Origin: Brachybacterium sp. Z12
Lineage (GTDB): Bacteria > Actinomycetota > Actinomycetes > Actinomycetales > Dermabacteraceae
Direction of reading: 5' to 3'
DNA length: 64,000 nucleotides
NCBI RefSeq assembly: GCF_014400405.1
Contig: NZ_CP060496.1
Span: 558,001-622,000, forward strand
Shown: one piece after another, positions 16,325 to 54,198 of the stretch
Layout: each line of letters opens with the position of its first letter
Numbering within the stretch: position 1 is the first letter of the stretch
The notes under the pieces: model-generated
Told to the model about the DNA's origin: nothing
What the model saw: only the letters and a program-made list of their open reading frames with translations
Databases searched by the model: none
Position numbers and translations under genes: made by a program

Positions 16325-17277
16325 CGACCGCCACCCGCGCAGACCGCGCCGCCGGAGCACTGCTGGGGCTCGCCTGCGGGGACGCCGCCGGCGTCCCGTA
16401 CGAGTACGCCACCGCCCCGTACGATCCGCAGCGCGGCCCGGAGATGATCGGCGGCGGGCTCGGCCCGTACGCACCGGGGGAGTGGTCCGACGACACGCAG
16501 ATGGCGCTGTGCATCGCGCGCGTCGCAGCGTCGAACACCCCGATCGATTCCCCTGAGGGGCTTGACGCGATCGCCCGCGGGTTCCTGGACTGGCTGCGCG
16601 AGGGCGCGACCGACGTGGGGACCCAGACCCGCCAGGTGCTCGGCGCGCTGCAGGCCGACGACGATGGCCCCGGCCTCGCTGAGCGGATGACGATGCTGGC
16701 CGCGGAGCTGCACGCTCGCTCCGGCCGCACCGCCGGCAACGGCGCCCTGATGCGTACCGCGCCCATCGCCCTCGCCTTCCCGGACGATCCGGAACGCACC
16801 GCCCGCGCCGCCCGTCTGATCGCCGAGCTCACCCACGCGGACCCGCTCGCCGGGGACTCCTGCGTGCTGTGGTGCGAGGCGATCCGCCGCTCCGTCGCCG
16901 ACGGCGTGCAGGGCAGGCCGGAGGACGGCTTCGGCCTGCTCCCGGCCGAGCGCCGCGACGCCTGGGCGGCGCTCGCCGACGGAACCTGGCGCCAGAGCGC
17001 CCTGGCACCGAACGGATTCACCGTCACGGCGCTGTACGCCGCGCTGCACGCGGTGGAGCAGACGGCCGGCGATCCGGCGGACAGCTTCCGTGCAGGCATC
17101 GCCGCGGCCGTCGCGCTCGGCGATGACACCGACACGATCGCCGCGATCACCGGCTCGCTGCTCGGAGCCTGGGCCGGGGCGACCGCCATCCCAGCGCAGC
17201 GGACAGGTGCGGTGCACGGCTGGCCGGGATATGACGGTGCCGGGCTGCGAGAGCTGGGGGCTTATATCGTCGGCTGA
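16321..17277 (+). CDS. ADP-ribosylglycohydrolase family protein (DraG-like)
   Basis: 318 aa. The family's two metal-binding segments are present: LGLACGDAAGVPYEY and EWSDDTQMAL near the N-terminus, and ALGDDTDTIAAITGSLLGA near the C-terminus, which coordinate the two Mg ions. The NGALMRTAP motif is also typical. It removes ADP-ribose from modified proteins, nucleic acids or small molecules in the cytoplasm. It is translationally coupled to the fucosidase (ATGA), an unexpected pairing. The gene ends 50 nt from the convergent AAA+ gene. Confidence 0.9.
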   Translation: MTTATRADRAAGALLGLACGDAAGVPYEYATAPYDPQRGPEMIGGGLGPYAPGEWSDDTQMALCIARVAASNTPIDSPEGLDAIARGFLDWLREGATDVGTQTRQVLGALQADDDGPGLAERMTMLAAELHARSGRTAGNGALMRTAPIALAFPDDPERTARAARLIAELTHADPLAGDSCVLWCEAIRRSVADGVQGRPEDGFGLLPAERRDAWAALADGTWRQSALAPNGFTVTALYAALHAVEQTAGDPADSFRAGIAAAVALGDDTDTIAAITGSLLGAWAGATAIPAQRTGAVHGWPGYDGAGLRELGAYIVG

Positions 17278-17327
17278 GCACGCCGCCGGAGTTCTACCGC
17301 GCACGAGGTCACGTCGGCCTCTGATCC

Positions 17328-20009
17328 TCAGCCGCTGATGTCTTCCGGGCGCAGGATGCGGATCTCCTCCGTCGTCGCCTCTGGCAGCTCGACAACCCGC
17401 ATCGCCTGGTGGCTGAGCGCGGCTTCGAAGAGGTTCCGCATAGCGCGGCCGTTGCCGAAGCCGGTGGGGCGTGGAGCGGGCAGGAGCGCGCGCACAGCGT
17501 CCTCGGCGCCCTCGGCGAGCTCGAGGCCAGCGCCGTCGGAGATGCTGCGGAAGATATCCACGAGTTGATCGTCGGTGTAGTCGGGAAACTCGAGAGTGGT
17601 GGGGAACCGCGAGGCGAGCCCGGGATTGGAGCCCAGGAACTGCGCCATCTGCTCGCCGTAGCCAGCGACGATCACCACAAGGTCCCGGCGATGGTCCTCC
17701 ATGAGCTTCAGCAGGGTGTCGATCGCCTCCCGGCCGAAGTCGGTCCCGGAGCCGGCGCTCTGCGCGAGCGTGTACGCCTCGTCGATGAACAGCACGCCGC
17801 CGAGCGCCTCCTGCACCTTGTCCGTGGTCTTCGGTGCGGTGTGCCCCACGTACTGGCCCACCAGGTCCGAACGGGAGGCCTCCACCAGGTGGCCGTTGTC
17901 CAGGATCCCGGCGCTCTGATAGATGCGGGCGAGGATCCGAGCCACCGTGGTCTTCGCCGTGCCCGGGTTGCCGGTGAACACCAGGTGCCGGGACGGTTCC
18001 TGGACCTTCAGGCCTGCCTGGCGGCGCAGCTCGCCGGCCTTGAGCTCGGCGGAGAGCATCCGCACCCGGTGCTTGACCGGCTCGAGACCGGTGAGGCCCT
18101 CGAGCTCGGCGACGGGGTCTCGGTCGCCCTCCTGGCGTTCGGCAGGCCGGGAGCGCTGCTTGCGGGGGAGATCGTCGGCGATGAGGGTGCGGATCTCCTC
18201 GTCGCTCGCCGTGTCGGGAGCGATGCGCATCGCCTGCTGCCCGAGGGAGGCTTCGAGCAGGTTGCGCACCCACCTCCCGTTGCCGAATCCTTCCGGTCGG
18301 GGCGAGGGGATCATCTCGGAGAAGCGTGCGACGAAGTCCTCGGCAACGACCATGCCCATGTCCTCGGCCAGGGCTGCGAGGATCTGCAGCAGCTCGGCGT
18401 CCGAGTAGTCGGGGAAGTCGATCGTGAGCGGGAACCGGGAGGCCAGGCCGCTGTTCGCGCGCAGGAAGTCGTTCATCTCCTTGCGGTACCCGGCAGCGAT
18501 CACCACGAAGCGATCACGGTGATCCTCCATGAGCTTCAGGAGGGTCGCCACAGCCTCTTTGCCGAAGTCGTTGCCGGAGTCCTTCGGCGCCAGGGAGTAC
18601 GCCTCGTCGATGAACAGCACCCCGCCGAAGGCCTCCTCGACCTTGGCCTTGACCAGCTGAGCGGTGCCGCCGACGTGTTCAGCCACCAGATCATCACGGG
18701 TGACCTCCACGAGATGACCGGATTCGAGCACCCCGAGGTCGCGATAGATGTGGGCGATAAGGCGTGCGACTGTCGTCTTCGCGGTGCCGGGGCCGCCGAG
18801 GAACAGGGCGTGGCGCGTGGGGCTGCCTACGCGCACTCCGGCCGCGCGCCGTCGTTCGGTCCACTGCAGCTCCGCGACCAGCGATGCGACCTGTTGCTTC
18901 ACCGAGGTGAGGCCGATCAGTCGGGAGAGCTCGTCCAGGGGCTGGTCGGACGTCGCCTCGGACGTCGTGCCAGCGGCCTCGGAGTACGTGCCTCCGGCCA
19001 GCGCGTCCCGGACGCGATCCAGGTCCGGGACCGTCGGGAAGCTGCTGTCGGGCGCCCCCAGCGCCCGTGCCTGCCACCGGAAGGAGGCGCCGACCCAGCG
19101 CCGCAGTTCCGCGGTCCGCCCGTCGGCGAGCAGGGCGTCGATGAAACGGCCAACGCGGTCGCGGACCTCCTCGGCATCGGTGCGCACCTCAGGAGCCCGC
19201 AGTCGGCCCAGCACGGCGTCTCCGGCGAGCTCGATGGCCTCCACTGTGAGCTCGGACCGCTCCTCATCGGAGTTGTGGAAGGCGGCCATCACCAGCAGAT
19301 CAGCCGGGTCCGGGGCATCTGGTGCGAGCGTGCCGAGGTGCGCGAGCTCGGCGTACGCGCTGCGCAGCACCGCGGCGGGACCCTTCAGGTCGGGGAAGAC
19401 GGCGGCCTCCTCGGCGGTGACGGCATCGCACAGCACACGATCGAGCTCGTCGATGTCCTCCGCGGCGTCGGCCGCCTCGCGGATGCTCTCGTCGGAAGAG
19501 ACACGGCGGAGCACCGACACGGTCGCGGTGAGCCGTTGCTGGAGCGGCGCAATGAACGGCACCAGGGAGAGCGCATCGCCCAGTGCTCCGGCACGGAGCG
19601 CTACGGGCAGCGCCTGCTGAGATGTGTAGAGCGCGGTGGTGAGCGGGGAGTGGCCCGTCGGCCAGGACGCTCCGTAGACCTGCGTGGAGCGGCCCTCATC
19701 GGAGCCGGGTGAGAGGAACGGTGCGGTCCAGTGGTACGAGAAGTTCTCGGCGTCCACGAACGTGAGCCCGCCGAGCTTGTGCAGCAGCAGGACAGCCGTT
19801 TCGAGGAGGGGGACGATGTCCTCACGCAGAGTGCCGTCGTGGGAGAAAGCGAACGCGCCGGGATGCCGGGCCAGCTTCCACATGCGGCGCTGGTACTCCT
19901 CGAGCCATCCCTCCGGGACATCCCAGGGTTCGGCGACCCCGTAGAAGTCGACCCGGGCGCGCCGGCTCTCCTCGGTGCGTGCCTGCTGCGTCTGTGCCTG
20001 CGGGGTCAT
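17328..20009 (-). CDS. tandem AAA+ ATPase (EccA/CbbX-like) coupled to the NERD protein
   Basis: 893 aa. The first ~370 residues form a helical N-terminal region with no recognised domain. Two CbbX/SpoVK-type AAA+ modules follow. Module 1 has Walker A LGGPGTAKTT near residue 408 and Walker B VLFIDEAYSL near 466; module 2 has TGNPGTAKTT near 683 and VLFIDEAYTL near 740. Both have the arginine-finger/sensor region SGLASRFPLTIDFPDYSD or PGLASRFPTTLEFPDYTD and GFGNGRWVRNLLE-like sensor 2. ESX EccA and CbbX carry one such module, so the tandem form is unusual. ATG 20009 overlaps the NERD gene stop (ATGA). No ESX genes are nearby, so a type VII secretion role is unlikely. Probably an energy-dependent remodeller of its partner. 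Confidence 0.85.
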   Translation of the reverse strand: MTPQAQTQQARTEESRRARVDFYGVAEPWDVPEGWLEEYQRRMWKLARHPGAFAFSHDGTLREDIVPLLETAVLLLHKLGGLTFVDAENFSYHWTAPFLSPGSDEGRSTQVYGASWPTGHSPLTTALYTSQQALPVALRAGALGDALSLVPFIAPLQQRLTATVSVLRRVSSDESIREAADAAEDIDELDRVLCDAVTAEEAAVFPDLKGPAAVLRSAYAELAHLGTLAPDAPDPADLLVMAAFHNSDEERSELTVEAIELAGDAVLGRLRAPEVRTDAEEVRDRVGRFIDALLADGRTAELRRWVGASFRWQARALGAPDSSFPTVPDLDRVRDALAGGTYSEAAGTTSEATSDQPLDELSRLIGLTSVKQQVASLVAELQWTERRRAAGVRVGSPTRHALFLGGPGTAKTTVARLIAHIYRDLGVLESGHLVEVTRDDLVAEHVGGTAQLVKAKVEEAFGGVLFIDEAYSLAPKDSGNDFGKEAVATLLKLMEDHRDRFVVIAAGYRKEMNDFLRANSGLASRFPLTIDFPDYSDAELLQILAALAEDMGMVVAEDFVARFSEMIPSPRPEGFGNGRWVRNLLEASLGQQAMRIAPDTASDEEIRTLIADDLPRKQRSRPAERQEGDRDPVAELEGLTGLEPVKHRVRMLSAELKAGELRRQAGLKVQEPSRHLVFTGNPGTAKTTVARILARIYQSAGILDNGHLVEASRSDLVGQYVGHTAPKTTDKVQEALGGVLFIDEAYTLAQSAGSGTDFGREAIDTLLKLMEDHRRDLVVIVAGYGEQMAQFLGSNPGLASRFPTTLEFPDYTDDQLVDIFRSISDGAGLELAEGAEDAVRALLPAPRPTGFGNGRAMRNLFEAALSHQAMRVVELPEATTEEIRILRPEDISG

Positions 20010-22466
20010 CGGTAGCTCCAGCCGCTCGCGACCACGGAGAAGCGCGAGTGGGCGTCGGGGTCGTCCACACGAAGTGTGGGGTAGTCGGGCTCCTCGAACA
20101 GGGCCAGGCGCACCTGCTCGATCTCGTCATGGAAGGCGTCGAGACCTGCGCGGACGAACCCGGCGTGAAAGGTTCCTTGGCGGGGGTCGCCGATCGTCTC
20201 GGCGCTCAGCGCTCCGAGCATGCCGGCCGCGGAGCGGATCAGCACCCGGCCGGGGACGAAGGCGATCGTGACGTCCTGTTCGGGGGAACGTCGGCCAGCA
20301 GCGGGACGAGCTCGCTCACGGGCACCATCGCCCGCACCAGGCTCTGGCCCTCGATGAGACGGAACGGCGAGTCCTCTCTCGGTGCACGCAGGAGCCGCAG
20401 GCGGTGACGGTCCGTCCCCGCGCTGAGGGCGAGCGTCGCCGTCCAGTCCTCGTGGGCGCCGAGCGTCAGCTGCAGCTGCCCGGAGGCGGAGTGGAGGCCC
20501 TCGAGCTGGTCGGTGCTGGTCAGCGCATGCAGCTCGGGGCCCTCACCGCTCGGCGTCCATTCCATGGCGCGGGAGATGGCGATCCCGTCGATCTTCCCGT
20601 TGACCAAGAAGTACTGCGTGCCCTCTCGGATGCCGACGGAGAGGTGGAAAGGGAGGGCAGGAGGTTGCGGGCCCTCGTCAGGGTTGCCGAGCCGGTGCAC
20701 GGCACCGAGCGCACCGCTGACCTCGCGCATCGCCGTGAGCAGGCAGCCGCCGTCGACGGTCCCGAGGGTGAGGAGGTCATCGGCGGGGAGGTCGATGTCC
20801 TTGACGGTGATGTCGCTCCATCCGCTGCGCGAGTGCAGGCTGTGGCTCTCACCGTCGACGTCCAGGTACCAGTTGGGCTCACGCGCGACCGCACTCCCAG
20901 CAGAAGGTCCAGTCTGCACCGAACATCGCGCCGCACTCCTCGCAGGTGCGGGCCGGGGTGGCGGCGGCGGCCTTCGCGGGGGCCGCCTGCTGCACAGCGG
21001 CGACCTCCGAGGCGTCCTGTGCCACGGAGACGCCAGCACCTGCGGAATGGTCGGTGGAGGTCGCCGCGGACGTGGCTGCGGGGGCCCCGGCCGACGCTGC
21101 GGTGCTGCTGCTAGCACGGGCGGGGGAACCGGTGGCGGTGTCGGATGCCGGGCGCGGACGGCGCATCCCGGGCGCTTGCTTCCAGGCCTCGCCGAGACGC
21201 GGAGCGGAGCCGGACTCATCCTTCACCAGCCAGCGGAAGACGCGCACGATGTGCTCGCTATCGGGTGCGGCGGGATCGAACGGCGGTTCGGCGGTGAGCT
21301 CGTTGATCGTGCGGTCGAGGTTCTCCGCCGAGATCCCGCCCGGCCAGAGGACGTCGGGAGCGATGGTCCCGATCCCCGTTGTCGGTCGGCATGAAGACGA
21401 CGCGGGCTCTCACCTCGTGGCCGACGCCGAGCGCACGGAACTTCTTCTGGACGCGGTCGGCGGCGAGCTCCATGTTCCTGCTCATAGAGCGGGCCTTGCC
21501 GATGTACCCGCCGGTGGGGTTGTCGATGAGGCGCAGGGCGTCGTCCTCCATGATCCAGGTGACGTCCCCCTGTGTGTAATTCTTCATGTCCAGCAGGTAG
21601 ATGGACCGGCCGGTGACGACGACACAGTCGATGTCGGAGCTGTAGGTGGTGCTTGCGCCGACAGTCTCGTCAGGCATGTGCACGGACCAGAAGGTCGCGA
21701 AGCGGTCGAGCTGTCCGGCGTGCTGGAGGGCGCGGGCGAAGTTCAGCTCGCCGTCCTGACCTTTGGCGATCTTGTCGGCGCCGAAGCCGGAGCCGCTGAG
21801 GCCGGCGCCCGGGGAGCCGTAGAGGTTCGCCAGTGCGGGGAGCTCGACCGCCGTGAGCGCTGAGGGCTCCAACCCGGTGAAGCGTCCCTGGGCGCTGGGC
21901 TGCAGCTGGCTGTTGACCTCCCGCTGCATCCGGCGGTCGTACTCGATCTCCTGCAGACGGGCCTTCTCGATGGCCTCCTGCTCGGCCCGGTGGGCGTTAT
22001 GGCGGCGGAGCTCCTCCCTGTGGACGCGGACCCTCTCCGCATCCTTCCTCGCAGCGCCGGGGACGAGCTTGCGCAGGATGAATCGAGCTGTCACCCCGAC
22101 TGCCATGACCAACGGCCACAGCGCATGCATCATCCACCAAGGGACATAGAGGAACCATTGCTCGACGCCTCCGGAGCTGAGCAGGAGCGAACCTGCGATC
22201 CAGAGAACAGCCAGGATGGCGCCGAAACCGACGACTCTCCCCATCTGCGACGCATGCGTCGCACCCTTCCCGACCATCTTCCACGTCAGCATCACGAAGG
22301 TCAGTGCCGGGATGATGCAGATCAGCCACACCGGCGGCATATCGCCCTTCGGTGCCACCCACAGGACGGCGATCAGCAGCGTGTAGAGGAACAGCCCCGT
22401 CCCGATATAGGCACGGAACTTCGTCAGCGTGATCGCCCGGTCGGCTGCCGGCTGGATGCTGGTCAT
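20006..22466 (-). CDS. membrane NERD-nuclease / zinc-ribbon / sliding-clamp-like protein, three frameshifts
   Basis: About 820 aa when three indels are restored (near 21376, 20890 and 20287). Order of parts: four hydrophobic helices in residues ~19-130 (LFLYTLLIAVLWVA, FGAILAVLWIAGSLLL, WWMMHALWPLVMAVGV); a charged helical stretch; a NERD domain at ~240-345 with GQDGELNFARAL and the nuclease-like D...DxK core (SSDIDCVVV, YLLDMKNYTQGD); a low-complexity Ala/Ser/Thr linker; a zinc ribbon CEECGAMFGADWTFCWECG; and ~290 C-terminal residues. That C-terminus resembles beta-clamp segments: LSAGTDRHRLRLL (compare ATDGHRL), AMVPVSELVPLLAD, and FHAGFVRAGLDAF with EQVRLALFE. The clamp relation is my inference. 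The gene is coupled to the tandem AAA+ gene. Confidence 0.72.
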
Positions 22467-22736
22467 CGTTCGTTCTTCCCCTCATCGTGCGCTGGGACGA
22501 CCTACGTGACCGTCCAGACCCCTGAGCGTGCTTCTGACGCCGCTGTGGCCACCATGATGCCGTTTCGATGGGACGGATGGATACCGAATCTGCCACCTGG
22601 GTTCTTCGACCTGCCGCGACTGGGGTGGAGCTGCGGGTCTCGGGAGCGTCGACCCGCACCGACGCCAGCGCGTCGCAGGGCGTGAGAGGAGCTCGGTGCA
22701 GGACACCAAGGATGCACTTGCTGCTGCCCGCACGGG

Positions 22737-22985
22737 TCAGCGGGCGGCAATGCCCTCCAACTCGCGCACCCAGCTCTGGACGCGCTCGGGCTCGGCCCAG
22801 CTGATCTCGAGCGAGTTGCGGGCCAGCAGCACCACCTCGTCGCGGGTGAGCTGCTGCGCGGTCGCGAGCGCTTCGATGTTGTCGCCCACGTAGCCACCGA
22901 AGTAGGAGGGGTCGTCCGAGGCGATCGAGACCTTCAGCCCCTGGCGCAGCAGCGTGGTGATCTCCTCGTGCGGAGGATCGATCCG
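22737..22985 (-). pseudogene. add: adenosine deaminase, C-terminal remnant
   Basis: Only about 80 C-terminal codons remain, read as PPHEEITTLLRQGLKVSIASDDP, then SYFGGYVGDN and LTRDEVVLLARNSLEISW, ending GIAAR. The SxASDDP block with its zinc-binding Asp pair and the NSLE segment are hallmarks of the adenosine/adenine deaminase family. Upstream of about 22985 the homology stops in this frame and the rest of the enzyme is absent. No promoter or start was found, so it is a deletion remnant. Confidence 0.75.
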
Positions 22986-27926: not shown

Positions 27927-29660
27927 TCAGGCGTTGCCCTCGGTGAGGCTCGCCGACGGCAGCCAGTCCGCCCCCAGCAGCTGGGCGACGCCCTCGAGGC
28001 CAGCGGTGTCGCCTCCCACGGTGTCGGAGGCGGCGGCGATCCTCTCCACCATCACCTTGCTGACCTGCTCCTCGACGGTGCCATGCGCGTAGGCGATGTG
28101 CCACGGGGAGACCTGGTGGTCGCGGTGGGTACGGCCGGTGACCTGCCGGCCCGCGATGCCCGAGAACCGGGCCTGGTGGAAGACGCCGACGCGGGGTTCG
28201 GTGCTCGCCCGGCGGCCGCCTTCGAGGGTCTCGCCGGCGTGGAGGCTGATCGAGGCGACCGTGGTGAACACACAGACCTTCGCCTGCCCGGTCTGGAACT
28301 TCAGCCGTTCGGCCTCGACATCGAAGCGGCCCTGTCCGTAGATGGTGGCGACCTCGAGGCCGGAGTCGCGCAGCCGCTCGGCGATCGGGTCGGCGGCGGT
28401 GCCGACGAACTCGACCGAGCACGCCACCTGCCGCTCGGACTCGACCTGCTGGGCGATCCAGGCGACAGTCGAGTCCACGCGGATCAGCCCGGCCTTCTGA
28501 CGGAAGCGCAGCAGCGCTGCCCGGCCCTTGGCGGTGTTGCGGCCGCGGCGGGCGATGTCCATCTCGCGGCAGAACTCTCCCCATTCGGCCTCATACGCGG
28601 CCCGCTCCGTCGGCGTGAGCGTGACCGGCATCCCGGAGATCGGCACCGGGCCCCATGGCGCCGCGCGATGCAGCATCGCGGGCGGCTGCGCGTCCTCGAG
28701 CCAGCCGCGCACCAGAGCGAGATCCGCAGCGCGCCGCTCGGCGTCGGTGGTCCAGGTCGCGCCGTAGCGTCCCTTCTCCAGGCCGACGCCGTGGCGCTCG
28801 AGCGCGGTCGCGAACGTGACCGCGGGCTGGGTGGCCGAGGTCCACTGCTTCATCGGCTCGTCGTGCACCTGTGCGTAGGCCGGGGCGAGGTAGGGCAGTT
28901 CGAGCGGTGTGTGGCCGGGCGTCGCCGTGGTCGCGATGACGAACGGCGCCTTGTCAGGGGGCTTGCTGTGCCCGGAGATCTTCGCCCAGAGCTTCCAGCG
29001 CTTCGTGGTGGTGCGCCGGAGCGCGTGGGCCTCATCCGCGATGATCACGTCCCAGTCGTAGTCGGTGACCTTCTCCAGCCGGTCCCAGGTAATCACCACC
29101 CACTCCAGGCCGTCATCGCCCAGTGCCGTGATGGTGCGGCACCAGTGCCCGATGGTGATCGCGGCAGGCCTGTCGGCGACCACGAGCACACGCTGCGCAC
29201 CGCGGAGGTCGCCCACCGCTGTGGCGCCGAGGACGGCGGAGATCGTCTTGCCGACGCCGGGCTCGTCGGCCAGCAGGAACTGCCGCCCACCGGCCGCGGC
29301 GCGTTCGGCGATCGCGTCGGCCGCCTCGTACTGGTTCTGGCGGGGCTCGAGGTCCTCGGCGGGCTCGGGGCTGGGCGCGGGATCATCGGGGTTGAGGGTG
29401 TTTTCGAGGAACTGCCCGAGCGTGTGCGGGCCCGGAGCGTAAGGGGCCAGGTGCTCGGGCAGCGTGCGCCCGACGAAGAGGTGCATCTTCACGGCCGGGT
29501 GCCAGGAGGCGCCTTCGACCTGGGTCCCGTAGGGCACGTCGAGCACCCACAGCCGCTCGCCCGGGCCGACGAACGGCAGCGGCCGCTGCGACTGCCCGGA
29601 CCTCGTCCGGCGCGGGGACCTGCGGCGACGGCGAGTGGGGGAGCGGCGAGGGGTGGGCAT
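27927..29660 (-). CDS. SNF2-like DEAH helicase, phage type
   Basis: 577 aa, SF2 ATPase. An Arg/Ser-rich tail (residues 1-25) precedes a small conserved domain RPLPFVGPGERLWVLDVPYG. Motif I is LLADEPGVGKTISAV (~residue 135), motif II VIIADEAHALRR, motif III IATTATPGHT, and motif VI region IAGRQVTGRTHRDHQ. The compact size and the Q-motif-free layout match helicases of actinophages and their islands rather than chromatin remodellers. It stands alone with no other phage genes visible. A diverged copy of its N-terminus is found at 39171-39308. Confidence 0.85.
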   Translation of the reverse strand: MPTPRRSPTRRRRRSPRRTRSGQSQRPLPFVGPGERLWVLDVPYGTQVEGASWHPAVKMHLFVGRTLPEHLAPYAPGPHTLGQFLENTLNPDDPAPSPEPAEDLEPRQNQYEAADAIAERAAAGGRQFLLADEPGVGKTISAVLGATAVGDLRGAQRVLVVADRPAAITIGHWCRTITALGDDGLEWVVITWDRLEKVTDYDWDVIIADEAHALRRTTTKRWKLWAKISGHSKPPDKAPFVIATTATPGHTPLELPYLAPAYAQVHDEPMKQWTSATQPAVTFATALERHGVGLEKGRYGATWTTDAERRAADLALVRGWLEDAQPPAMLHRAAPWGPVPISGMPVTLTPTERAAYEAEWGEFCREMDIARRGRNTAKGRAALLRFRQKAGLIRVDSTVAWIAQQVESERQVACSVEFVGTAADPIAERLRDSGLEVATIYGQGRFDVEAERLKFQTGQAKVCVFTTVASISLHAGETLEGGRRASTEPRVGVFHQARFSGIAGRQVTGRTHRDHQVSPWHIAYAHGTVEEQVSKVMVERIAAASDTVGGDTAGLEGVAQLLGADWLPSASLTEGNA

Positions 29661-29810
29661 CCCGTGAGGCTACCGGGATCCCGCCTATGACCAGGGCGGC
29701 TCGCCCATGGCCGTTGCGCCGGCGACCGTCATCCGCGCAGACCTGGAAGCGCACCATCTCTGGAGCACTCCGATACTTCACTCCCCGAAGTTCGGGCGGG
29801 AGCCAGATAT

Positions 29811-30598
29811 TCAACGCTCGAGCCCGGCGGCGAATCCCATCGTGAACCCATCGAGCAGGTCAGCAGCGAGCTTGCTCCGCATGTGTTGCAGTAGAACCGG
29901 ACGCAGCCGGGCATCGTGGAGAGTATCGAGCACCGCCATGCCATCGAAGGGGTGAATGCCTCTGCGGCACGGCGTGCGTAGTGGTAACTCGCTGCGGCGA
30001 CGACGCCGTCGTCCGTGGCGCTGAGTGCCTCATCGTCCTCCCAGACGTCATCGACGAACGGATCCTCGGCCAGGGCCGCGAGGATGACTCGCAGGTCGAG
30101 CCCGTCCTTGGGATTGGCATGATGCCGGTCCCTCCACGCCAGCACTTTGAGCGCGGTCTGCGCGGGAGCGCTCGCGACACGGAGCTCGGTGCCGAGCGGC
30201 ATCCGCACCGGAACCGACGTGGCATGCGCCTCCTGCAGTCCATTGACATCCAGGAGATAGCCATCGGCGAAGCGCACTTCGCGGCCCTGCTCGATCCCTC
30301 CGAACGGGACGACGTCGACCTCGACTCCGAACACCTCGAAAGTGTGCTCCGAGCGTCCTTTCCGTGTCAGACGATCCGCCAACTCGATGAACTGTTCACC
30401 GATGCGGACGGCGACAGCGATATCGATGTCCTCGGTCGCGCGTATCGGGGTGCTCTGCTGAAGGGCATGGATCACGAGATCGCGAGCTGCGGCACCGACG
30501 ACGAGGAACTCGAGCTCCAGGTCACGACAGATGTCTGTCAGCTCCGCGAGGACCTCCTCGGCGACTGGTATATCGGAGCGCCCTGTCAGGTCGATCAT
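29811..30598 (-). CDS. nucleotidyltransferase toxin, AbiEii-like (type IV toxin-antitoxin), one frameshift
   Basis: About 262 aa. The nucleotidyltransferase signature is LEFLVVGAAARDLV followed by the metal pair in RATEDIDIAVAV (DxD). Downstream, LLDVNGLQEAHATSV and ALKVLAWRDRH fit the AbiEii/AbiGii and related NTase toxins, which add nucleotides to tRNA acceptor ends. The frame shifts near 29957 (one C missing in CACCCCTTCG); the restored end reads FDGMAVLDTLHDARLRPVLL and stops at 29811. ATG 30598 overlaps the stop of the partner antitoxin gene (ATGA), the standard arrangement for such pairs. Confidence 0.78.
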
Positions 30599-31602
30599 CG
30601 CGTGTCACCGAACAGCTGGGCGCGGATCTCGTCGAGCCGGGGGTCGTCCTCGAGCAGCAGGTCCGCCCTGAGCAGTGGCCTGGGAACGACGCCTTCCTCC
30701 CCGGTCGGTGGGGATTTCCAGAAGGTCGGGCGGATCCGCACCAGGCCGTCCGGTGCTCTGCGCAGACGCCCTTGGCGGATGAGGTTGCGCCGGGCGTCGG
30801 GAGGAAGATGAACAAGGGCCTGTGATGGCCGGATCGGTGCGCCGAGGCGCGCGGCGGCCAGCTCCGAGCCGAGAAGCGCTCCGTGGGGGAGCTCCACCTC
30901 CAGGAGGTCCGAGGGGTCCTTCCAGATGTCGCTGGTGAACCGCTCCTCGGGCCATGTGCTGGGTTGCATGGTCGAGTAGGCGGCGACCCATTCGTCTTCG
31001 AGCGCGGCGGGGCGCAGCACTTGGTTGTTCTTGTCGAGCATCGGTGGCGTGCGCTCGCGCAGAGCGCGGACGACACGGTTGACAGTGCCGATCGATGCTC
31101 CTGATGACGCTGCCAGTTCACGCTGCAGGACTCGACGCTCCTGCTGATTCGCAAGGAGCACGGCGAAGGTGACAGGCAGGCCGGCGCGCGTGAAGGGAGC
31201 TGCGGTGGAGGTTCGGCCCGCCCCGGTATCTCTCTTGCCCGCGATCTCGATGAGAAGCCCTGGTGACCGCAGCGATGCGTTGCCCGTCGAATCGGCGTAG
31301 CCACCCCAGCCTCGCGCGGCGAGTGCCTCCGCTCGTGCGGGGGTCATGTGGCGGGTCAGCAGGACCGTCTGCTTGTCATGGGGCAGCAGCGCGAGTTCGG
31401 CGGGGCTGACGGTCGCGGTGGCCACGGCTGGGAACTCGTGCACCCCGGTTCCGTCATCGAGCAGGAGAGTGCCAGTGCAGATACTGCCCTCGAGGTTCTC
31501 CCCGTGCCGCCAGTCGGGCTTGATGCCCAGGTCACTGAGATGGTGGAGCACATTCTGGATGACGGTGCCCGCGGCACCCTTCGGATGTTCAATCGATCCC
31601 AT
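30595..31602 (-). CDS. AbiEi-like antitoxin/transcriptional regulator (type IV toxin-antitoxin)
   Basis: 335 aa. N-terminal ~190 residues: a domain with VLLTRHMTPARAEALAARGWGGYAD and, further on, a winged helix LQRELAASSGASIGTVNRVV RALRE (recognition helix SIGTVNRVV). The C-terminal part (PPDARRNLIRQGRLRRAP) resembles AbiEi antitoxin domains. It precedes and overlaps the nucleotidyltransferase toxin gene. AbiEi proteins neutralise the toxin and repress their own promoter at inverted repeats; matching repeats lie directly at its start codon. Confidence 0.78.
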   Translation of the reverse strand: MGSIEHPKGAAGTVIQNVLHHLSDLGIKPDWRHGENLEGSICTGTLLLDDGTGVHEFPAVATATVSPAELALLPHDKQTVLLTRHMTPARAEALAARGWGGYADSTGNASLRSPGLLIEIAGKRDTGAGRTSTAAPFTRAGLPVTFAVLLANQQERRVLQRELAASSGASIGTVNRVVRALRERTPPMLDKNNQVLRPAALEDEWVAAYSTMQPSTWPEERFTSDIWKDPSDLLEVELPHGALLGSELAAARLGAPIRPSQALVHLPPDARRNLIRQGRLRRAPDGLVRIRPTFWKSPPTGEEGVVPRPLLRADLLLEDDPRLDEIRAQLFGDTR

Positions 31603-47348: not shown

Positions 47349-48559
47349 TCAGGGCTGGTAGGGAGCGGGCATGGTGTGCAGCCGCTCATCGATCGTCCTG
47401 CGCAGCAGTTCGACGGCGTACCCCAGCTCGATCCGCTCCTGCTCCAGCCGCAGTCCCGTCGCGCTCAGCTCGCGATATAGCTCGGCCTCCGTAGCTGTGA
47501 GGCGCGTCAGCTCGACCTGGCTGCGCTCACCACCGGATCCTGTCAGTTCTCGGTGCGCGTCGAGAGCGGCTCGATCCATCAGCACGCTGTGGACATCGCT
47601 GTGGTGGTGACGCGCCCTGTCGAGGATCCGCAATCCGTCAGCATCGATATCGCCCCAGTACAGGACGGGTGCCCTCTGGACCCATGGCACAGCGAAGAGA
47701 TCCAGCAGGTTGTACCCGGTCCCGCCCACCGCCACGGTCCCTGGGAGGTCCGGCAGCACCTGTACGGTCTCCGAGTTCTCGCACACGATCACCACGCGAG
47801 GGTGAAGCCCCGTCGCAGCGAGCGCCTCCGGATCCATGCGGCTCGATCGGGGCAGGCCCGGCCGCTCGGCACGTGACGGGGATCGAGCACCACGAGATCG
47901 TGGAAGGTGGGCGCGGGCCGGAGCCCCAGCTCGGTGGAGCCATCGGCCCGCGCGGCGCCGACAAGCCCTTCGACCACGGCGCGGTGATCCTTCAACCACT
48001 TCGTGTGCATCCCGGGCAGCGGCACCTGACGGATCCGGAAGCCGCTGCCGGGATGAGCGAGCAGCCAGGCAGCGGCCCGGACGCACAAGTCCGCATCGAC
48101 CGACGGCATCTGCAGCCACTGCGCTCGGCGGCGTGTGATCGCGGTGGCCACGCGGGACCGCAGATCCGAGGGAGCGTCGTCCGCGGGCGTCATTGCCGCG
48201 AGGGCCTCCACCGCCGCCTCCGCACGTCGGGAGAGTACCGCCCACTCCGTTCTGGTCGCCTCCCCAGCGAGGCGGCACAGCGCACCTGCCTCCCCGGCCT
48301 GCCAACGCACGGGAACCAGCTGGGTGCCCAGGTGCGCCCAGCGCCGCTCCTCCCACGCCACGAACTCGGCCAGAGGGCCAGCACTCCGCCACGCATCGAT
48401 CCAGGTGTGGGCGCTGGTCGGGTCGGCGAGCGCCTCGGCGCCCGTCGGCGGATGCAGCGGCACCGAGACGGCCGCGCCCGATGGGTCGGCGATCCACGCT
48501 GCGGTGTTCCGTGCCCATGCCTGCTGCAGGCGCTTGCGCACTTCCTCCGGGAAACGCAT
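47349..48559 (-). CDS. jetD: Wadjet system protein JetD (toprim nuclease subunit), one frameshift
   Basis: About 403 aa (DUF3322 plus DUF2220). The C-terminal toprim-like domain reads VVIVCENSETVQVLPDLPG with the catalytic Glu, then GGTGYNLLDLFAVPW and VLYWGDIDADGLRILDRAR (DxD). The N-terminal arm has WLKDHRAVVEGL and TFHDLVVLDPRHVPSG. One base is missing near 47850 (GGCCGGGCC), after which the protein continues LPRSSRMDPEALAATG. JetD cleaves circular DNA extruded by the JetABC condensin-like motor. The ATG overlaps the jetC stop (TGATG). Confidence 0.92.
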
Positions 48560-51500
48560 CACGCCTCCAACTCGGCGAACGTCACGGCCGCGAGATGAGA
48601 GGTGCTGTCCGCACTCTTGGCCACCACGGCGGCACCGCCCACGTATTCCTCGATGGTCTGCAGCATCTTCAGCGGCGTGGCCAGCAGCATCTGGAACCCG
48701 AAGGATCGGAACACCTCGAGTCCGGCGCGGGTGTAATGCATGTCGGAGTTCCCGAAGGCTTCGTCCAGCACCACCGAGCCATACGCCGGCACTCCGTCGG
48801 CCGACTCCATGAGTTGATAGCGCAGCGCTGCTGCCAGGCAGAACGTCACCAGACGTTGCCGCTGCCCACCCGAACGGCCGCCCGCGCCGCGGTAGACATC
48901 CACCACCGCGCCGGATTCATCGAGCTCACGCGCCTCGAACTCGACGTGCCGGCGTGTGTCGAGCACGCGACGTCTCCAGGAGACGTCGCTGGTCTCCGCA
49001 CTCCCGAGACGGCGCAGAAGCGCATCCATCCGCACATAGCGGTGCTCCGCCTGGGCGATGGTCTCCTCTCCTTGGCCGAAGGCGCCCTGTGTGATCTCCA
49101 GCAGCGCGGTGAGGAAGTCCCGTACCTCTTCGGTGTGCTTCTTCTTCACGACGATAGTGAGCCAGGTGCGGCGCTCCGTGTCGAACGGGGTCGCCTCCAG
49201 GGAGCGGTTCACCGGCGTGAGGCGCTGATGCACGTCACGGATCGCATGGCTGATCACCGCACGGAGCTGCCCGATGTTGTTCTGTGACTGGCTGCGCAGC
49301 AGATCGCGGAAGCGGTGCTCGAACTCGGGCAGCCGGTCGCTCTCCAGCCGCTCCAATATGCGCAGGAAATCCTCGGTGGCGTCGATGTCGTCGACCAGGT
49401 TCGCCGACCGCTCCGCCCAGCGCCGCAGATACTCCCGCCGCGCCCCTTCGAGCGCCGAGGCGGCACGGCGGATCCTCTCCCGTGCTGCGTCCAGGTCATC
49501 TCGGATCTCGCCGTCCAGCAGGCGGATCGTCTCTGGCAGGTTGGCCCGCTTCAGCGCCGTTCGTCGATGGGAGAGCAGCCGCCGATGCAGCTCGTCCTTA
49601 TCGGCCGGTGCCAGCTCCTCGCCGCCCAGCACGTTGCGCGCCCTGTCCAGATCAGCCTGTGCCTCCTCGGCCTCCTGCTCCAGTGAGGTCACGGCCAGTC
49701 GAGCAGTGTCATAGGCGTTCTTCGCGATGGCGAGGTCGCGCGTCGCTTCCTCGAGCATCTGGTCGAGGGCTCCGAGTCCCTGATCGTTCATGAGCGTGCG
49801 ACGCCGGGCCTCATAGCTCGCGATACGCTCCTGCACACCGGCCAGGTCCAGATCGGCCCATCGGGTGTCGAGCAGCGTGTCGAGCGCGCGCTGTCGCCCT
49901 TCGAGATCTCGGCGCTCCCGTTCGAGGTCGCCGAGCGCGGTCTGCTCCCGAGTGAGCGCGGTCTTCGTCGTCTGGAGCTCCGCCCCGCGCAGCTCGAGCA
50001 GCTCCATGTTGTCCGTGCCGATGATCCAGCGGGACCGGTCATCGATGCGGAAGCGATCATCCTTGAGGTGGTGGTCGCGGTTCTTGATCTGCCCTGCACG
50101 GGTCAGGGCCCGCTCGTGGCGGGCGAGGTCGGCGATGTCGTCCACCAGGACGTGTGGGTGCGAGCGTTCGATGCGGTGGCGCAACCACTCCTGGAACGGG
50201 GACTCGGTCAGGCGCAGCACCGAGAGCACTGTGCGGGCACCGTCGCCGGGACGGACGGGAGACTCATGGTGCCGGGCGGTGTCGCGCACCCGCTCGTAGG
50301 AGATTCGCGTGCCCCAGTGCCGTCCCTCGACCGCCCGGGACACCTGCGGATACAGACGTTCTGGAACCAGGATGGTCACGGCCAGGGAGTGCAGCAGCCT
50401 CTCCACTGCGCCCTGCCAGCTCGGATCGCGCACATCCATCAGCTCCGCGGCGAAGGGCAGCGCGCTGGGCGCCTCTCCGGCGAGGTCCGCGAGCTCATCC
50501 CGCACTTCCGCCATCCGGCCCGGCACCCGCGATCGTCGGGCCCGCAACGACCGGATTTCGGTCTCCAGCTCCGCCATGCGCCGCCGCGCGCCATCGAGGG
50601 CGACGTGGTGCGGTGTCGCTCCCTCCGACAGTGCCGACATCTCCGCGGTGATCCGGGCCTGCTCCCTGTCCGCCAGGGCATGCGCTGCCGCCAGTTCCTC
50701 GGGGCCGGACGGCTGCGCGGCGTCGAGCTGTGCGAGCACCGGCAGGAAACGGTCGATGTTCTCCGAGACGCGGAGGGACTGTGCGCGGGCGTCCTCGAGG
50801 TCTCGCTCCAGCAGCTGGAGATCTGCCCCGCCACGTCCGTCCCTCTGCGTCCTCACCTCCCGTTCCCGCTGGTCGGCATCGCGTTCGGCGATCCGGGCGC
50901 GTTCCTCAGCGGTCAGCGCGACCTCGAGCTCGGTGCGGGTCGTCGCGAGATCGGCCTCGGCGAGCTGGGCGAGCACGGTGTGCTGGAACGGAGTGACCGC
51001 GGTGTGCAGACGCTCCCACCGCTGCTTGTCGCGACTGGCTTCGGAGTGGATGCGCCACTGCTCCCGCTGCGGCAGGAGGACGTCCACCTGCTCGCGGGCG
51101 TCGAGCACCGTGGCATGGGCGTCCTGCAACGCCCTGAACTGGTCGACCGCTTGCTCGGCAAGGTCGAAGGTCTCGGGCGTATCGAGCATGAACTCGCGCA
51201 GCAGCTCATCGAGCGAGGTGAGGGACTTCGCGGCCTGGGTGCGGTGCAGCAGCCGTTGCGCGCCCTCCGTGCGGATGCCGGTGTGCCGTCGCAGCTGGAG
51301 GCCGAACTTGGTGTACGTGTCCTCGGCGACCAGAGGGGTCAGCGCCCGCTTGAGCTTCCGCCGATCGATCCCGGGCCTGCTCAGCGCCAGCGGCTCCGCG
51401 AGGTCGACCGCGCGATCGAACAGAACGAACGCCGAGCGGAGATCGGTCGCGGCGGCGGAACGCCCGGTGACGTGCAGGATTCGCATCGCCGTGACGACGC

Positions 51501-51975
51501 GATCCTTGCCGTCCTCGAAGGTGAGTGCGATGCCGGAGACCGTCGTCGCCGGGCGCAGATACCCGGAGGTGACCTCGCCGGTGTCGTCATCGGACTGTTT
51601 GCGGAACGCGCCGCGCACATAGCTCATCGGGGTGCGGTCACGGTCACCGACGGGCCCGTCCTGTGCAGCGGCGTTGAAGCGCGTCTCGCCTGGACGCATG
51701 AGCACGGCGCTGAGCGCGTCCAGCACCGAAGATTTGCCCGACCCGGACTCACCCGTCAGCAGCAGTCCGGCGCGGGGGACGGGCAGCACATGGCCGCCCT
51801 GGAACGTGCCCCAGTTGTGCAGCTGCACGCGGGATAGGCGCATCTGCCCGAGATGCAGAGGAGCCGGGGCCGTCGTCGCGTCGGTGGGTGCTCCGTCAGT
51901 GGGCGCGGTGTCTCCGGGTGCGATCTCGTCGGACATCGAGTCAACGGCCCCGAGGGCGAGCTCCGGCTGGGTCAT
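48559..51975 (-). CDS. jetC: Wadjet system protein JetC (SMC/MukB-like ATPase)
   Basis: 1138 aa. A disordered acidic N-tail (~40 aa) is followed by RLSRVQLHNWGTFQGGHVLPV and Walker A LLTGESGSGKSSVLDALSA (residues ~74-90). Long coiled-coil arms flank a hinge-like region (~residues 480-560). The C-terminal ATPase half has the signature GGRSGGQRQRLVTFCLAAAL and Walker B YGSVVLDEAFGNSD. JetC dimers extrude DNA loops and select small circular plasmids. Length fits the MukB/JetC family. It overlaps jetB by ATGA. Confidence 0.96.
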   Translation of the reverse strand: MTQPELALGAVDSMSDEIAPGDTAPTDGAPTDATTAPAPLHLGQMRLSRVQLHNWGTFQGGHVLPVPRAGLLLTGESGSGKSSVLDALSAVLMRPGETRFNAAAQDGPVGDRDRTPMSYVRGAFRKQSDDDTGEVTSGYLRPATTVSGIALTFEDGKDRVVTAMRILHVTGRSAAATDLRSAFVLFDRAVDLAEPLALSRPGIDRRKLKRALTPLVAEDTYTKFGLQLRRHTGIRTEGAQRLLHRTQAAKSLTSLDELLREFMLDTPETFDLAEQAVDQFRALQDAHATVLDAREQVDVLLPQREQWRIHSEASRDKQRWERLHTAVTPFQHTVLAQLAEADLATTRTELEVALTAEERARIAERDADQREREVRTQRDGRGGADLQLLERDLEDARAQSLRVSENIDRFLPVLAQLDAAQPSGPEELAAAHALADREQARITAEMSALSEGATPHHVALDGARRRMAELETEIRSLRARRSRVPGRMAEVRDELADLAGEAPSALPFAAELMDVRDPSWQGAVERLLHSLAVTILVPERLYPQVSRAVEGRHWGTRISYERVRDTARHHESPVRPGDGARTVLSVLRLTESPFQEWLRHRIERSHPHVLVDDIADLARHERALTRAGQIKNRDHHLKDDRFRIDDRSRWIIGTDNMELLELRGAELQTTKTALTREQTALGDLERERRDLEGRQRALDTLLDTRWADLDLAGVQERIASYEARRRTLMNDQGLGALDQMLEEATRDLAIAKNAYDTARLAVTSLEQEAEEAQADLDRARNVLGGEELAPADKDELHRRLLSHRRTALKRANLPETIRLLDGEIRDDLDAARERIRRAASALEGARREYLRRWAERSANLVDDIDATEDFLRILERLESDRLPEFEHRFRDLLRSQSQNNIGQLRAVISHAIRDVHQRLTPVNRSLEATPFDTERRTWLTIVVKKKHTEEVRDFLTALLEITQGAFGQGEETIAQAEHRYVRMDALLRRLGSAETSDVSWRRRVLDTRRHVEFEARELDESGAVVDVYRGAGGRSGGQRQRLVTFCLAAALRYQLMESADGVPAYGSVVLDEAFGNSDMHYTRAGLEVFRSFGFQMLLATPLKMLQTIEEYVGGAAVVAKSADSTSHLAAVTFAELEA

Positions 51976-52733
51976 GTGTGGTCCTCCTCGTGGATCCCGT
52001 CGGCGGGGTCGGACTCCTCGAACTCGGCCATCCGCTCGTCGGCCTCCTCCGCGCTGTCCTCGTTGTCCGGGGCGGCAGCCCCGCCCACTGACCCGAACTC
52101 TGTGGCATCCCGCAGTCGCCGGTACTCCTCTTCGATCCCGCTGATCTCGTCGGCGGAGAGAATGAGAGCGAGGATGGAAGATACCTCCCAGCGCTCCTCC
52201 GTGTCGGTGCGGAGCAGGATCGAGTAGTCGTACATCCGCTTGATGCTCGCGTTCAGCCGCTTGCGGAACTGCGCCTCATCGTTGCCGCTGGAGGCGACAT
52301 AGGCCTGCATGTGCGCATCGATCTCGTCCCTGCCGACGACCACCCGCTCCTGTCGGGCGGCTCCCTGGAGGAGCAGATGGCGCAGGTGCAGCAGCAGCGC
52401 CGAGTCGATGAAGCTCAGCGGCGCGGTGCGCAGCACGCTCGGCACCGGTGAGGGGAAGTCCGGGTCTGGCACCAGATTGCGGGAGAAGGCGACCTCCGCA
52501 TCAGCATCGATCGCCAGATCCAGCAGCAGATCGCCCAACCGTCGACGCACCACCTGCTCGTGTGCGAGAAGCGCGGACCACAGCAGCGGGTCCTTCTGAT
52601 GGGAGATATACGGGCCGCGGAGCAGGGCGACGAGCACTCGACGCACGTCCAACGGCAAGGTGCCCGGGTCGCCGGGCCACAGCTCCACACGCTCACCGGC
52701 CGGTGACGTGGTGGGGATGTCCAAATCAGCCAT
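51972..52733 (-). CDS. jetB: Wadjet system protein JetB (DUF4194, MukE-like)
   Basis: 253 aa. Winged-helix, MukE/kite-type subunit: VLVALLRGPYISHQKDPLLW, RRLGDLLLDLAIDADAEVAF and SSGNDEAQFRKRLNASIKRM, with the very acidic C-tail (DNEDSAEEADERMAEFEES). JetB bridges JetA and the JetC heads. The start overlaps the end of jetA by 8 bp. Confidence 0.93.
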   Translation of the reverse strand: MADLDIPTTSPAGERVELWPGDPGTLPLDVRRVLVALLRGPYISHQKDPLLWSALLAHEQVVRRRLGDLLLDLAIDADAEVAFSRNLVPDPDFPSPVPSVLRTAPLSFIDSALLLHLRHLLLQGAARQERVVVGRDEIDAHMQAYVASSGNDEAQFRKRLNASIKRMYDYSILLRTDTEERWEVSSILALILSADEISGIEEEYRRLRDATEFGSVGGAAAPDNEDSAEEADERMAEFEESDPADGIHEEDHT

Positions 52734-54198
52734 GGGTGCGTTCCTTCGACGAGCGGGTGAATGTCAGGAGGGGCAGCCGAGCCGAGCGCACGCCGTGGTC
52801 GGTCTCCCACCGGATGAGCTCCTCCACGCCACCGTCGTGGGCCGGCTGCTCGTGCCGCTGTGCGAGGACAACCAGGCCCACGACCGATGCCAGCCCCTGG
52901 GTGGCCGGGAACGCCTCGAGAACCTCGCCGATGGTGGCAGCGGACCGCGTGGCGAGGGTGGCATCGACGGCGGCCTGGAGCTCTGCGAGGTCGATCTCGG
53001 ATTCCCGGATGGTGGCGCGCAGTGCGTCGAGATCCAGAGCACCTACGTGGGCGACCTCGAGCGGATCATCCGCGGTCGCCTCGCCGGGAGAGAGGAGCCG
53101 GAACTGGCCCACCGAGCGCGGCGTGAAGGTGGACAGTGTCAGCTCGACCCCGAGCTTCGTGTGGGGGCGGACGTGCGGCGCAATCTCGAGGCCGAGCCGC
53201 TGAGGGCGTCGCAGCCTGTCTGCCAGGGCGCGGAACTCCTCGAACTGCCTCGAGCGGACGAACTCCCGCAGCGACCGGGAAAGATCGATCATCGCGTGCC
53301 GCACCTGATGGGAGTCACGCTGCAGTCGGAAGAGATAGGACTGCAGGTAGAGCACACGATCGGCGCCGAGCGCAGCAGCGAACGGGCGCGAGGCCAACGC
53401 ATCCACCGCCTCGTGGAACCGTGCCTCCTGCACGGGATCGATGAGCATCGCGTGGAAGGCAGAGAAAGATCTTCCCGCCTCGGACCCCTCGATCGCATCG
53501 ACCCCGAGGAACAGCTGATCGAGGATCTCTCCCTGCGGGCCGTCGTGCTCGACGAGGCCCAGCCGAAGCTGCCGGTGCAGGTCCTCCAGCTCGCTGCGCA
53601 CGCGGGTGAAGTCGGAGGGGACGTCGAGTGCGAGCGAAAACAGCTCCTCCGCCGCTTCCAGGGCCTGATCCTGCGGCATCGGGTCGGCGCCGTGCTCGCG
53701 GACGGTATCGATGAGTGCGTCGATCCGCGCGCGCTCCGCTTCCAGCTCGAGGATGCGGCGGGAGGCGTCGGGATCCGTGTCCTGCGCGAGGGTGCGCAGT
53801 CGGTCCGTGAGCAGTGCGAGACGCGACCGGGTCACGGCCTCTCGCGGGGCGTGGACCTGGTCCAAGATGCGCAGCGCCACGTGCGTGTGCTCCGTCAGGG
53901 AGAACTCCTCGGTCCGCTCGGCGCGAGCGGCGCGGCGGGTGAGATACCCCTGTTCGACCCATGCGGAGCAGTAGTGCTGGGCACTGCGGGGGAGGTCGAT
54001 GTCGTGGAGGCGCAGCTCCTCGAGATCGGCGTCGAGGAGATCGTAGAGATCCGCTGCTGTGCGGGTGCGCTCGGCGCCGCCGAGGTGCTCCGCGAGCATC
54101 CCGAGTATGTACGGCGCATTGTCCCGACGAAGAAGCTGCAGAGGCCCCTTGTCGGTCATGAGCTCACGGTTCTGCAGGGCGCGGGCGAGACCGGACAT
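52726..54198 (-). CDS. jetA: Wadjet system protein JetA (DUF3375, MukF/kleisin-like)
   Basis: 490 aa, first gene of the operon. N-terminal winged helix (LLRRDNAPYILGMLAEHL, TAADLYDLLDADLEELRLHD) and a helical core (RILELEAERARIDALIDTV) typical of DUF3375 kleisins. ATG 54198 follows CAGGAGAGGAG. JetA joins the two JetC heads and contacts DNA. Gene order A-B-C-D on one strand with overlaps is that of type I Wadjet. Confidence 0.93.
   Translation of the reverse strand: MSGLARALQNRELMTDKGPLQLLRRDNAPYILGMLAEHLGGAERTRTAADLYDLLDADLEELRLHDIDLPRSAQHYCSAWVEQGYLTRRAARAERTEEFSLTEHTHVALRILDQVHAPREAVTRSRLALLTDRLRTLAQDTDPDASRRILELEAERARIDALIDTVREHGADPMPQDQALEAAEELFSLALDVPSDFTRVRSELEDLHRQLRLGLVEHDGPQGEILDQLFLGVDAIEGSEAGRSFSAFHAMLIDPVQEARFHEAVDALASRPFAAALGADRVLYLQSYLFRLQRDSHQVRHAMIDLSRSLREFVRSRQFEEFRALADRLRRPQRLGLEIAPHVRPHTKLGVELTLSTFTPRSVGQFRLLSPGEATADDPLEVAHVGALDLDALRATIRESEIDLAELQAAVDATLATRSAATIGEVLEAFPATQGLASVVGLVVLAQRHEQPAHDGGVEELIRWETDHGVRSARLPLLTFTRSSKERTHG

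Follow-up and report, generated by a model that had tools for sequence, protein, structure and literature searches.

Sliding clamps are hubs of replication and repair and are loaded by RFC-type ATPases. Here, an operon of Brachybacterium sp. Z12 is described in which a divergent paralogue of the beta sliding clamp (DnaN) is encoded between a membrane protein carrying a nuclease-related domain (NERD) and a tandem AAA+ ATPase, and it was analyzed within a window of 64,000 nucleotides (the whole stretch under study, positions 558,001 to 622,000 of contig NZ_CP060496.1), to which all positions given without a locus label refer. Among described systems, the clamp loaders (RFC and the DnaX complex) share with it an AAA+ protein encoded together with a sliding clamp and, possibly, the remodelling of a ring, while the ATPase found here belongs to a different AAA+ family. 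Both of its modules match the SpoVK/CbbX/EccA family (TIGR02881, TIGR02880, TIGR03922), from which it differs by having two active-looking modules as well as an unmatched N-terminal region, and by being partnered with a clamp and a NERD protein instead of Rubisco, ESX or sporulation genes. A SpoVK-family AAA+ protein is also part of the predicted CoCoNuT defence cassettes, where, in the parts of the source consulted, the neighbour is a glycine-zipper protein and neither NERD nor sliding clamp occurs in the main text (PMC11090510). As for the membrane component, the closest described protein is SmdA of Staphylococcus, which likewise combines an N-terminal membrane part with a cytoplasmic NERD domain; according to the sections of the article consulted, it has a role in cell division and lacks several conserved NERD residues, whereas the residues aligned in our protein are kept, and its authors state that the functional importance of NERD had not previously been studied in any bacterial protein (PMC9040797).

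Every part of the operon has known relatives, the novelty lying in their assembly, and none of the known systems compared fits it. Whole-word searches of the open-licence part of PubMed Central returned one paper for NERD together with DnaN (a genome analysis, judging by its title) and none for sliding clamp together with CbbX, and no description of the combination of NERD, clamp paralogue and AAA+ protein was found there. PADLOC 2.0.0, run on the window pieces, gave only partial, low-scoring AAA/P-loop matches for the AAA+ gene (best IetA, 4.1e−17) and nothing at E 1 for the NERD and clamp pieces, genes 1 and 2 of the intact relatives being outside this run.

The original prediction described a two-gene system, in which a NERD nuclease with four membrane helices, a zinc ribbon and a long C-terminal part was joined by an ATGA overlap to an AAA+ gene. 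The NERD, ribbon and AAA+ features proved to be real, but intact relatives carry three overlapping genes, so the two-gene reading was rejected; it arose because the window copy is frame-broken. The operon and its genes are laid out as follows:

17328 to 22466, minus strand: segment with the operon, transcribed in the order NERD gene (22466 to 20879), middle gene (20882 to 20006), AAA+ gene (20009 to 17328).
20879 to 22466, minus strand: gene 1, membrane NERD protein with a C-terminal zinc ribbon (open reading frames (ORFs) 21258 to 22466 and 20879 to 21247; Pfam NERD).
20006 to 20882, minus strand: gene 2, DnaN (beta sliding clamp) paralogue (genome searches, model and fold search).
17328 to 20009, minus strand: gene 3, intact AAA+ protein of 893 amino acids (ORF and family searches).
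L021:11235 to 12758, minus strand, and L030:2076 to 3599, plus strand: intact copies of the NERD gene.

L021 is the locus of genome G022, and L030 comes from the metagenome-assembled genome (MAG) Brachybacterium sp. 97_S4, whose match coordinates are the same as those of the genus genome G148. In these two intact copies (G022 and L030) the NERD protein has 507, the middle protein 292 and the AAA+ protein 890 amino acids; the GTG start of gene 2 overlaps the NERD stop (GTGA), and the ATG of the AAA+ gene overlaps the stop of the middle gene, which is the overlap that had been assigned to the NERD gene. What had been taken for the long C-terminal part of the NERD protein is a separate gene (20006–20882), as the NERD gene ends with the ribbon (stop at 20879). 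In the window, one frame break affects the NERD gene, near 21380 (two offset matches), and two affect gene 2, near its own start and near 20285. The source assembly consists of 1 contig with 85.7% completeness and looks frame-broken as a whole: the frame of its own dnaN stays open for no more than 227 amino acids, compared with 414–444 in the four relatives tested. Because this essential gene is broken too and completeness is 85.7%, the breaks in genes 1 and 2 are probably due to sequencing error rather than decay. Compared with G022, the ratio of nonsynonymous to synonymous substitutions (dN/dS) was 0.16 for the AAA+ modules and 0.41 for the N-terminal region of the same protein, 0.17 for NERD residues 1–364, and 0.57 and 0.39 for the two parts of the clamp. 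The pieces of genes 1 and 2 (dN/dS 0.17–0.57) remain under constraint, the clamp only mildly.

Gene 2 is a divergent paralogue of DnaN, because its best genome-search match was dnaN in all 12 further genomes with a match and its modelled C-terminal domain matches DnaN domain III; the clamp-like guess made earlier was right, but it applies to a third gene and not to a domain of the NERD protein. Searching 38 genomes of the genus with gene 2 (E 0.01) recovered the three operon copies as well as matches in these 12 genomes, the best of which (E 5e−5 to 0.007) was identified as dnaN by its C-terminal sequence in 12/12 cases, and a recF-like frame start was seen by a simple motif at eight of the 12 loci (names by reading). 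Fifteen rows of this search lay outside the operon: 12 were read, two (G022 and G148) were matches to PF02768, and one (G004:C1:2090626, E 0.0067) was left out. The aligned stretch comprises residues 88–272 of gene 2 and roughly the C-terminal half of DnaN, and in an hhalign comparison with those dnaN the profile built from the three clamp copies reached a probability of 63% (E 7e−5). The AlphaFold2 model of gene 2 was poor overall (predicted local distance difference test, pLDDT, 50.8), with block means of 66–85 for residues 181–250, except for 65 at the end, and of 59–65 for residues 251–290. Nevertheless, a Foldseek search with it gave 350 matches at E 0.001 or better, the best 50 of which were all sliding clamps or PCNA (top E 5.5e−9). 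VIA-align placed residues 179–289 on clamp domain III (residues 250–366 in E. coli) with Z 13.7–14.8 in the best 50 rows, 42 of which fitted within 2.0–2.4 Å over 104–108 residues, and the DNA-clamp fold is accordingly predicted for residues 179–289 only. PF02768 exceeded the Pfam cut-off for one gene per genome in five of five genomes and never for gene 2; as each of the five has one canonical dnaN, gene 2 is additional to it. Apart from the homologous sequence and the matching C-terminal domain, gene 2 differs from DnaN in its length (292 vs. about 375 amino acids) and in its replaced C-terminus. Judging by length, there would be room for two clamp domains, and a trimer like that of PCNA may be formed.

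The clamp gene was found in three of the 38 genus genomes (G000, which is the window genome, G022 and G148), strong NERD matches were confined to the same three, and the AAA+ gene adjoins in all of them; the three genes overlap and travel together. Three more genomes of the genus had short, weak NERD matches (E 5.6e−4 to 0.005). The pairing, proposed from the sequence, of a NERD protein in the membrane with a CbbX-type remodeller dedicated to it is supported. Co-occurrence outside the genus found no support: the four NERD loci opened outside it (one Arthrobacter plasmid, two of six Bifidobacterium plasmids and one Brevibacterium contig) had no CbbX-type or clamp gene in the 16–21 kb fetched around them (tblastn, with L030 and L048 as positive controls), and one match of P0003 in L023 (E 0.093 over 52 residues) was taken as chance. 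Plasmids with distant NERD relatives (28–39% identity over 40–41% of the query) amounted to seven of 72,556 records, six from Bifidobacterium and one from Arthrobacter. Of 18 candidate stretches in viral contigs scanned with the NERD alignment, none was confirmed, and a scan of genome contigs, the reach of which is limited to what two short patterns match, confirmed two of 64, namely the Brachybacterium MAG and a Brevibacterium NERD gene without the partners. Searching 119 genomes of the order for NERD returned the own genome and two marginal matches.

Gene 1 is a membrane NERD protein in which the presumed nuclease residues are intact. Both the NERD core and the CxxC...CxxC ribbon were present as predicted, on the minus strand and upstream of the AAA+ gene:

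21393 to 21764, minus strand: NERD domain (ORF residues 235–358; GE...DID...DxK residues retained).
20891 to 20944, minus strand: zinc ribbon, CxxC-x10-CxxC (by sequence).

The Pfam NERD match was above the cut-off both in the window (E 9.9e−9) and in G022 (E 3.7e−9). The GE, DID and DxK residues, which we take to be a PD-(D/E)xK(-like) core, are present in all seven aligned rows (three from Brachybacterium, one each from Brevibacterium and Arthrobacter, and two from Bifidobacterium). Three of the four membrane helices originally proposed were recovered as hydrophobic N-terminal segments above the hydropathy threshold, while the fourth, tryptophan-rich one is recognized by reading only. The spacing of the ribbon is the same in G022, L030 and the Brevibacterium and two Bifidobacterium homologues; the Arthrobacter homologue has neither the ribbon nor a membrane segment above the threshold. 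In Brevibacterium mcbrellneri, a protein encoded upstream of the NERD gene (L031:5719–6705) has a membrane N-terminus and a similar zinc-ribbon end without the NERD part, and, by reading, resembles a partner or a partial duplicate of the NERD protein.

Gene 3 is an intact ORF with two SpoVK/CbbX/EccA-type modules, in agreement with the original prediction, preceded by an N-terminal region that is indeed without a credible family match, though closer to 345 than to the 370 amino acids first estimated:

18975 to 20009, minus strand: N-terminal region of about 345 amino acids, predicted to be mostly helical (low-confidence model).
18165 to 18947 (approximate bounds), minus strand: AAA+ module 1, with Walker A GGPGTAKT, Walker B FIDEAY and ASRF.
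17334 to 18128 (approximate bounds), minus strand: AAA+ module 2, with GNPGTAKT, FIDEAY and ASRF.

The protein is 80% identical to the G022 copy, and Walker A (GxPGTAKT), Walker B (FIDEAY) and the ASRF segment are kept in both modules. The AAA core with AAA_lid_6 is present, and the SpoVK model scored 526 bits (two stretches summed) against a cut-off of 423; the EccA and CbbX models score high, yet remain under their own cut-offs, and the RFC and DnaX models reached 20–24 bits against cut-offs of 250 or more. With the G022 protein as query, the nearest solved chains were those of CbbX (3zuh/3syk, best stretch in module 2) and EccA1 (9lur, best stretch in module 1). The model of the N-terminal region (pLDDT 44) was too poor for a fold search, and this region was found in one of 148 genomes of the class, the window's own. 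ARAGORN called a tRNA-Pro inside the AAA+ gene and on its strand (18996–19092, minus strand), which is probably false.

A second association of a clamp-like sequence with this type of ATPase was seen in G018, a member of the same genus, where an N-terminal clamp-like stretch of 266 amino acids is apparently fused to a set of three CbbX-like modules, in which Walker A and Walker B each occur three times. This stretch matched the DnaN N-terminal domain in Pfam DNA_pol3_beta (E 5e−4, below the cut-off) and a PHROG processivity factor (E 1.1e−5), and its 18 PDB matches were all beta clamps (E 0.09–0.46). The fusion is the downstream gene of a single run (L048:8392–15435), following an Hsp70 and a DnaJ-TPR gene, an unusual, chaperone-like arrangement. 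It shares Hsp70 and DnaJ or TPR proteins with the described Hsp70/DnaJ-TPR NTP-dependent conflict systems, which, in the parts of the source consulted, are centred on a GTPase or MoxR, with no occurrence of CbbX, SpoVK, NERD, DnaN or sliding clamp in the main text (PMC7159879). The G018 clamp domain was found in one of 149 genomes of the order, G018 itself, and had no plasmid match; the DnaJ-TPR protein had no match at E 1e−20 in 148 genomes of the class, a set without a positive control. Elsewhere in the genus, AAA+ relatives carry a repeat-rich, beta-helix-like N-terminus (by reading) or a membrane N-terminus. For instance, L049:14188–17601 and L057:1–1914 show a long N-terminus resembling a parallel beta-helix (by reading) ahead of the CbbX-type modules, L057 containing only the start of the AAA+ part.

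The operon occupies a site that is empty in two relatives:

17245 to 22720, no strand: segment absent from the same place in G143 and G006, where 46 bp lie between the matching flanks.

The flanks of the empty site are an ADP-ribosylglycohydrolase gene and an adenosine deaminase-like gene (the latter named by reading); about the last 77 codons of the deaminase-like gene are left in the window (22737–22968, minus strand), the ORF in G143 having 336 amino acids. In G006, the chromosomal site of the window operon is occupied by a beta-helix-like/CbbX-type AAA+ gene next to the deaminase gene. The operon adjoins different intact genes in G022 and L030 (by reading), with a transporter gene in each and additionally a metal P-type ATPase in G022. 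Just upstream of the NERD gene, a 115- to 324-bp ADP-ribosylglycohydrolase remnant is present in L021 (13003–13117) and L030 (1537–1860), whereas the intact gene of the window lies on the opposite side of the operon. The dehydrogenase gene that belongs to the right flank in the window is found in G022 about 12 kb further on; therefore, the operon keeps to one chromosomal region while its borders differ. Further along the window, Wadjet genes JetA, B, C and D were detected at 47349–54198 (minus strand), 25–32 kb from the operon, with JetC at 1163 bits and JetA, JetB and JetD also matching, JetD over its C-terminal part only. An AbiEi-type antitoxin/regulator (30598–31602, minus strand; Pfam AbiEi_2, E 1.4e−17) lies 8 kb from the operon. 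Next to it, the frame at 29732–30598 gave no match, and 27927–29660 (minus strand) encodes a ResIII helicase-like protein with a weak, partial BrxHI match. The first 4000 positions of the window have a low G+C content (0.57–0.61, compared with about 0.66–0.75 elsewhere). As for a consistent linkage of the AAA+ protein to ESX or carboxysome-type genes, named at the outset as a refuting finding, none of these genes was noticed among the neighbours viewed in L021, L030 and the window; these were identified in part from their translations and in part by family searches, which did not cover every gene. Altogether, the locus has the pattern of an accessory, possibly defensive, cassette, which is no proof of defence or mobility.

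The composition of the operon is well supported, whereas its mechanism and a role in defence are inferred. We tentatively favor a reading, to which we give somewhat less than an even chance, in which an accessory clamp, remodelled by the AAA+ protein, delivers DNA to a membrane nuclease, probably as an activity directed against mobile DNA. The AAA+ ring would act on the clamp subunit, opening, placing, removing or reshaping it much as clamp loaders do, though from a different AAA+ family; the clamp would hold or mark DNA and either present it to, or trigger, the membrane-anchored NERD nuclease, the NERD protein thereby serving as a membrane-bound effector. The target would most likely be incoming plasmid or phage DNA and, less likely, damaged host DNA. 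That the AAA+ protein may act on the clamp is suggested by the gene overlap, by the apparent fusion in G018 and by the fast evolution of both the clamp and the AAA+ N-terminal region (dN/dS 0.39–0.57 and 0.41, compared with 0.16–0.17 for the rest), as would be expected for a specificity surface. A defence role is plausible considering the empty site, the accessory distribution, and the Wadjet and AbiEi genes elsewhere in the window.

Several results weigh against this reading. The trio is known from one genus only, gene 2 and the AAA+ N-terminal region had no plasmid match, phage searches with genes 1 and 2, which did not include the AAA+ protein, gave no match, and the immediate neighbours in the window are metabolic genes. 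NERD proteins need not be nucleases, as the consulted sections on SmdA point out (PMC9040797). Regarding the clamp, Pfam calls no family for gene 2 and no family library named it. A DnaN profile run with hmmsearch over 1,606 local ORFs placed the G022 copy at the top with a weak score (E 0.0098), ahead of an unrelated ORF (second, 0.066) and of L030 (fourth, 0.19), and the model reached fair confidence only from about residue 181, the block-mean pLDDT being 26–52 for residues 1–180. Furthermore, the C-terminal LIMPMRI of DnaN, present in all 12 dnaN read, is replaced by ASGWSYR in all three copies (VLASGWSYR or VVASGWSYR). The LIMPMR segment is presumably the peptide pocket, and because of this replacement the pocket is probably altered and gene 2 is unlikely to bind the usual clamp-binding peptides. 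Finally, the clamp identity of the G018 stretch is weaker than that of gene 2, because hhalign supported a link neither with dnaN (5.9%) nor with the trio clamp (2.4%), and the two arrangements need not share a common descent.

Other explanations account for parts of these data. The clamp could be a decoy or sensor that is never on DNA and that, once touched by phage or plasmid replication proteins, makes the AAA+ protein release or activate NERD, leading to death or arrest; the clamp being the fastest-evolving subunit, the membrane location of the effector and the occupation of the accessory locus by another AAA+ gene in G006 all agree with it, but the replaced peptide-binding end argues against an imitation of the usual docking site, and we regard this scenario as unlikely. 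A similarly low probability is given to a protein-remodelling, chaperone-like machine, in which the clamp fold is an adaptor feeding a client to the AAA+ ring and NERD is an anchor instead of a nuclease. CbbX and EccA act on proteins, and the G018 clamp-AAA+ fusion is encoded in one run with Hsp70 and DnaJ-TPR genes; in the same direction point the beta-helix-like or membrane N-termini of other AAA+ relatives in the genus (by reading) as well as SmdA, whose NERD domain may have no nuclease role according to the sections consulted (PMC9040797). Against it, the NERD core residues are retained in every aligned row, and neither an Hsp70 nor a DnaJ gene came to notice in the viewed flanks of the trio, where not every gene was family-searched.

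Clamps, AAA+ proteins and nucleases are classic parts of repair machines, so a module for repair of the host chromosome or for replication stress at the membrane could also be formed by an alternative clamp together with a loader and a nuclease of its own; we consider this improbable, as the operon is accessory and rare (three of the 38 genomes) and its site is empty in two relatives. The least probable explanation, and a very unlikely one, is that the window copy is a dead operon. It would fit the three frame breaks in genes 1 and 2, but in this genome dnaN, an essential gene, is broken as well, on which ground it was disfavored, and the completeness of 85.7% in one contig, the intact gene 3 and the signs of constraint on the pieces also speak against decay.

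Returning to the favored reading, in which an AAA+ protein remodels an accessory clamp for a membrane nuclease, a more specific version appears rather doubtful: a two-domain, PCNA-sized clamp paralogue and a CbbX-type ring would form a second, non-RFC pair of clamp and remodeller, steering a membrane NERD nuclease onto foreign DNA, with the G018 fusion accompanied by Hsp70 and DnaJ-TPR as another branch of the same idea. With a clamp paralogue encoded beside an ATPase of the SpoVK/CbbX type, and in G018 apparently fused to one, a second ATPase family may act on clamps, and bacterial conflict systems would gain a clamp as a further component. The trio also offers a testable role for NERD, and in Brachybacterium the cluster may police foreign or damaged DNA.

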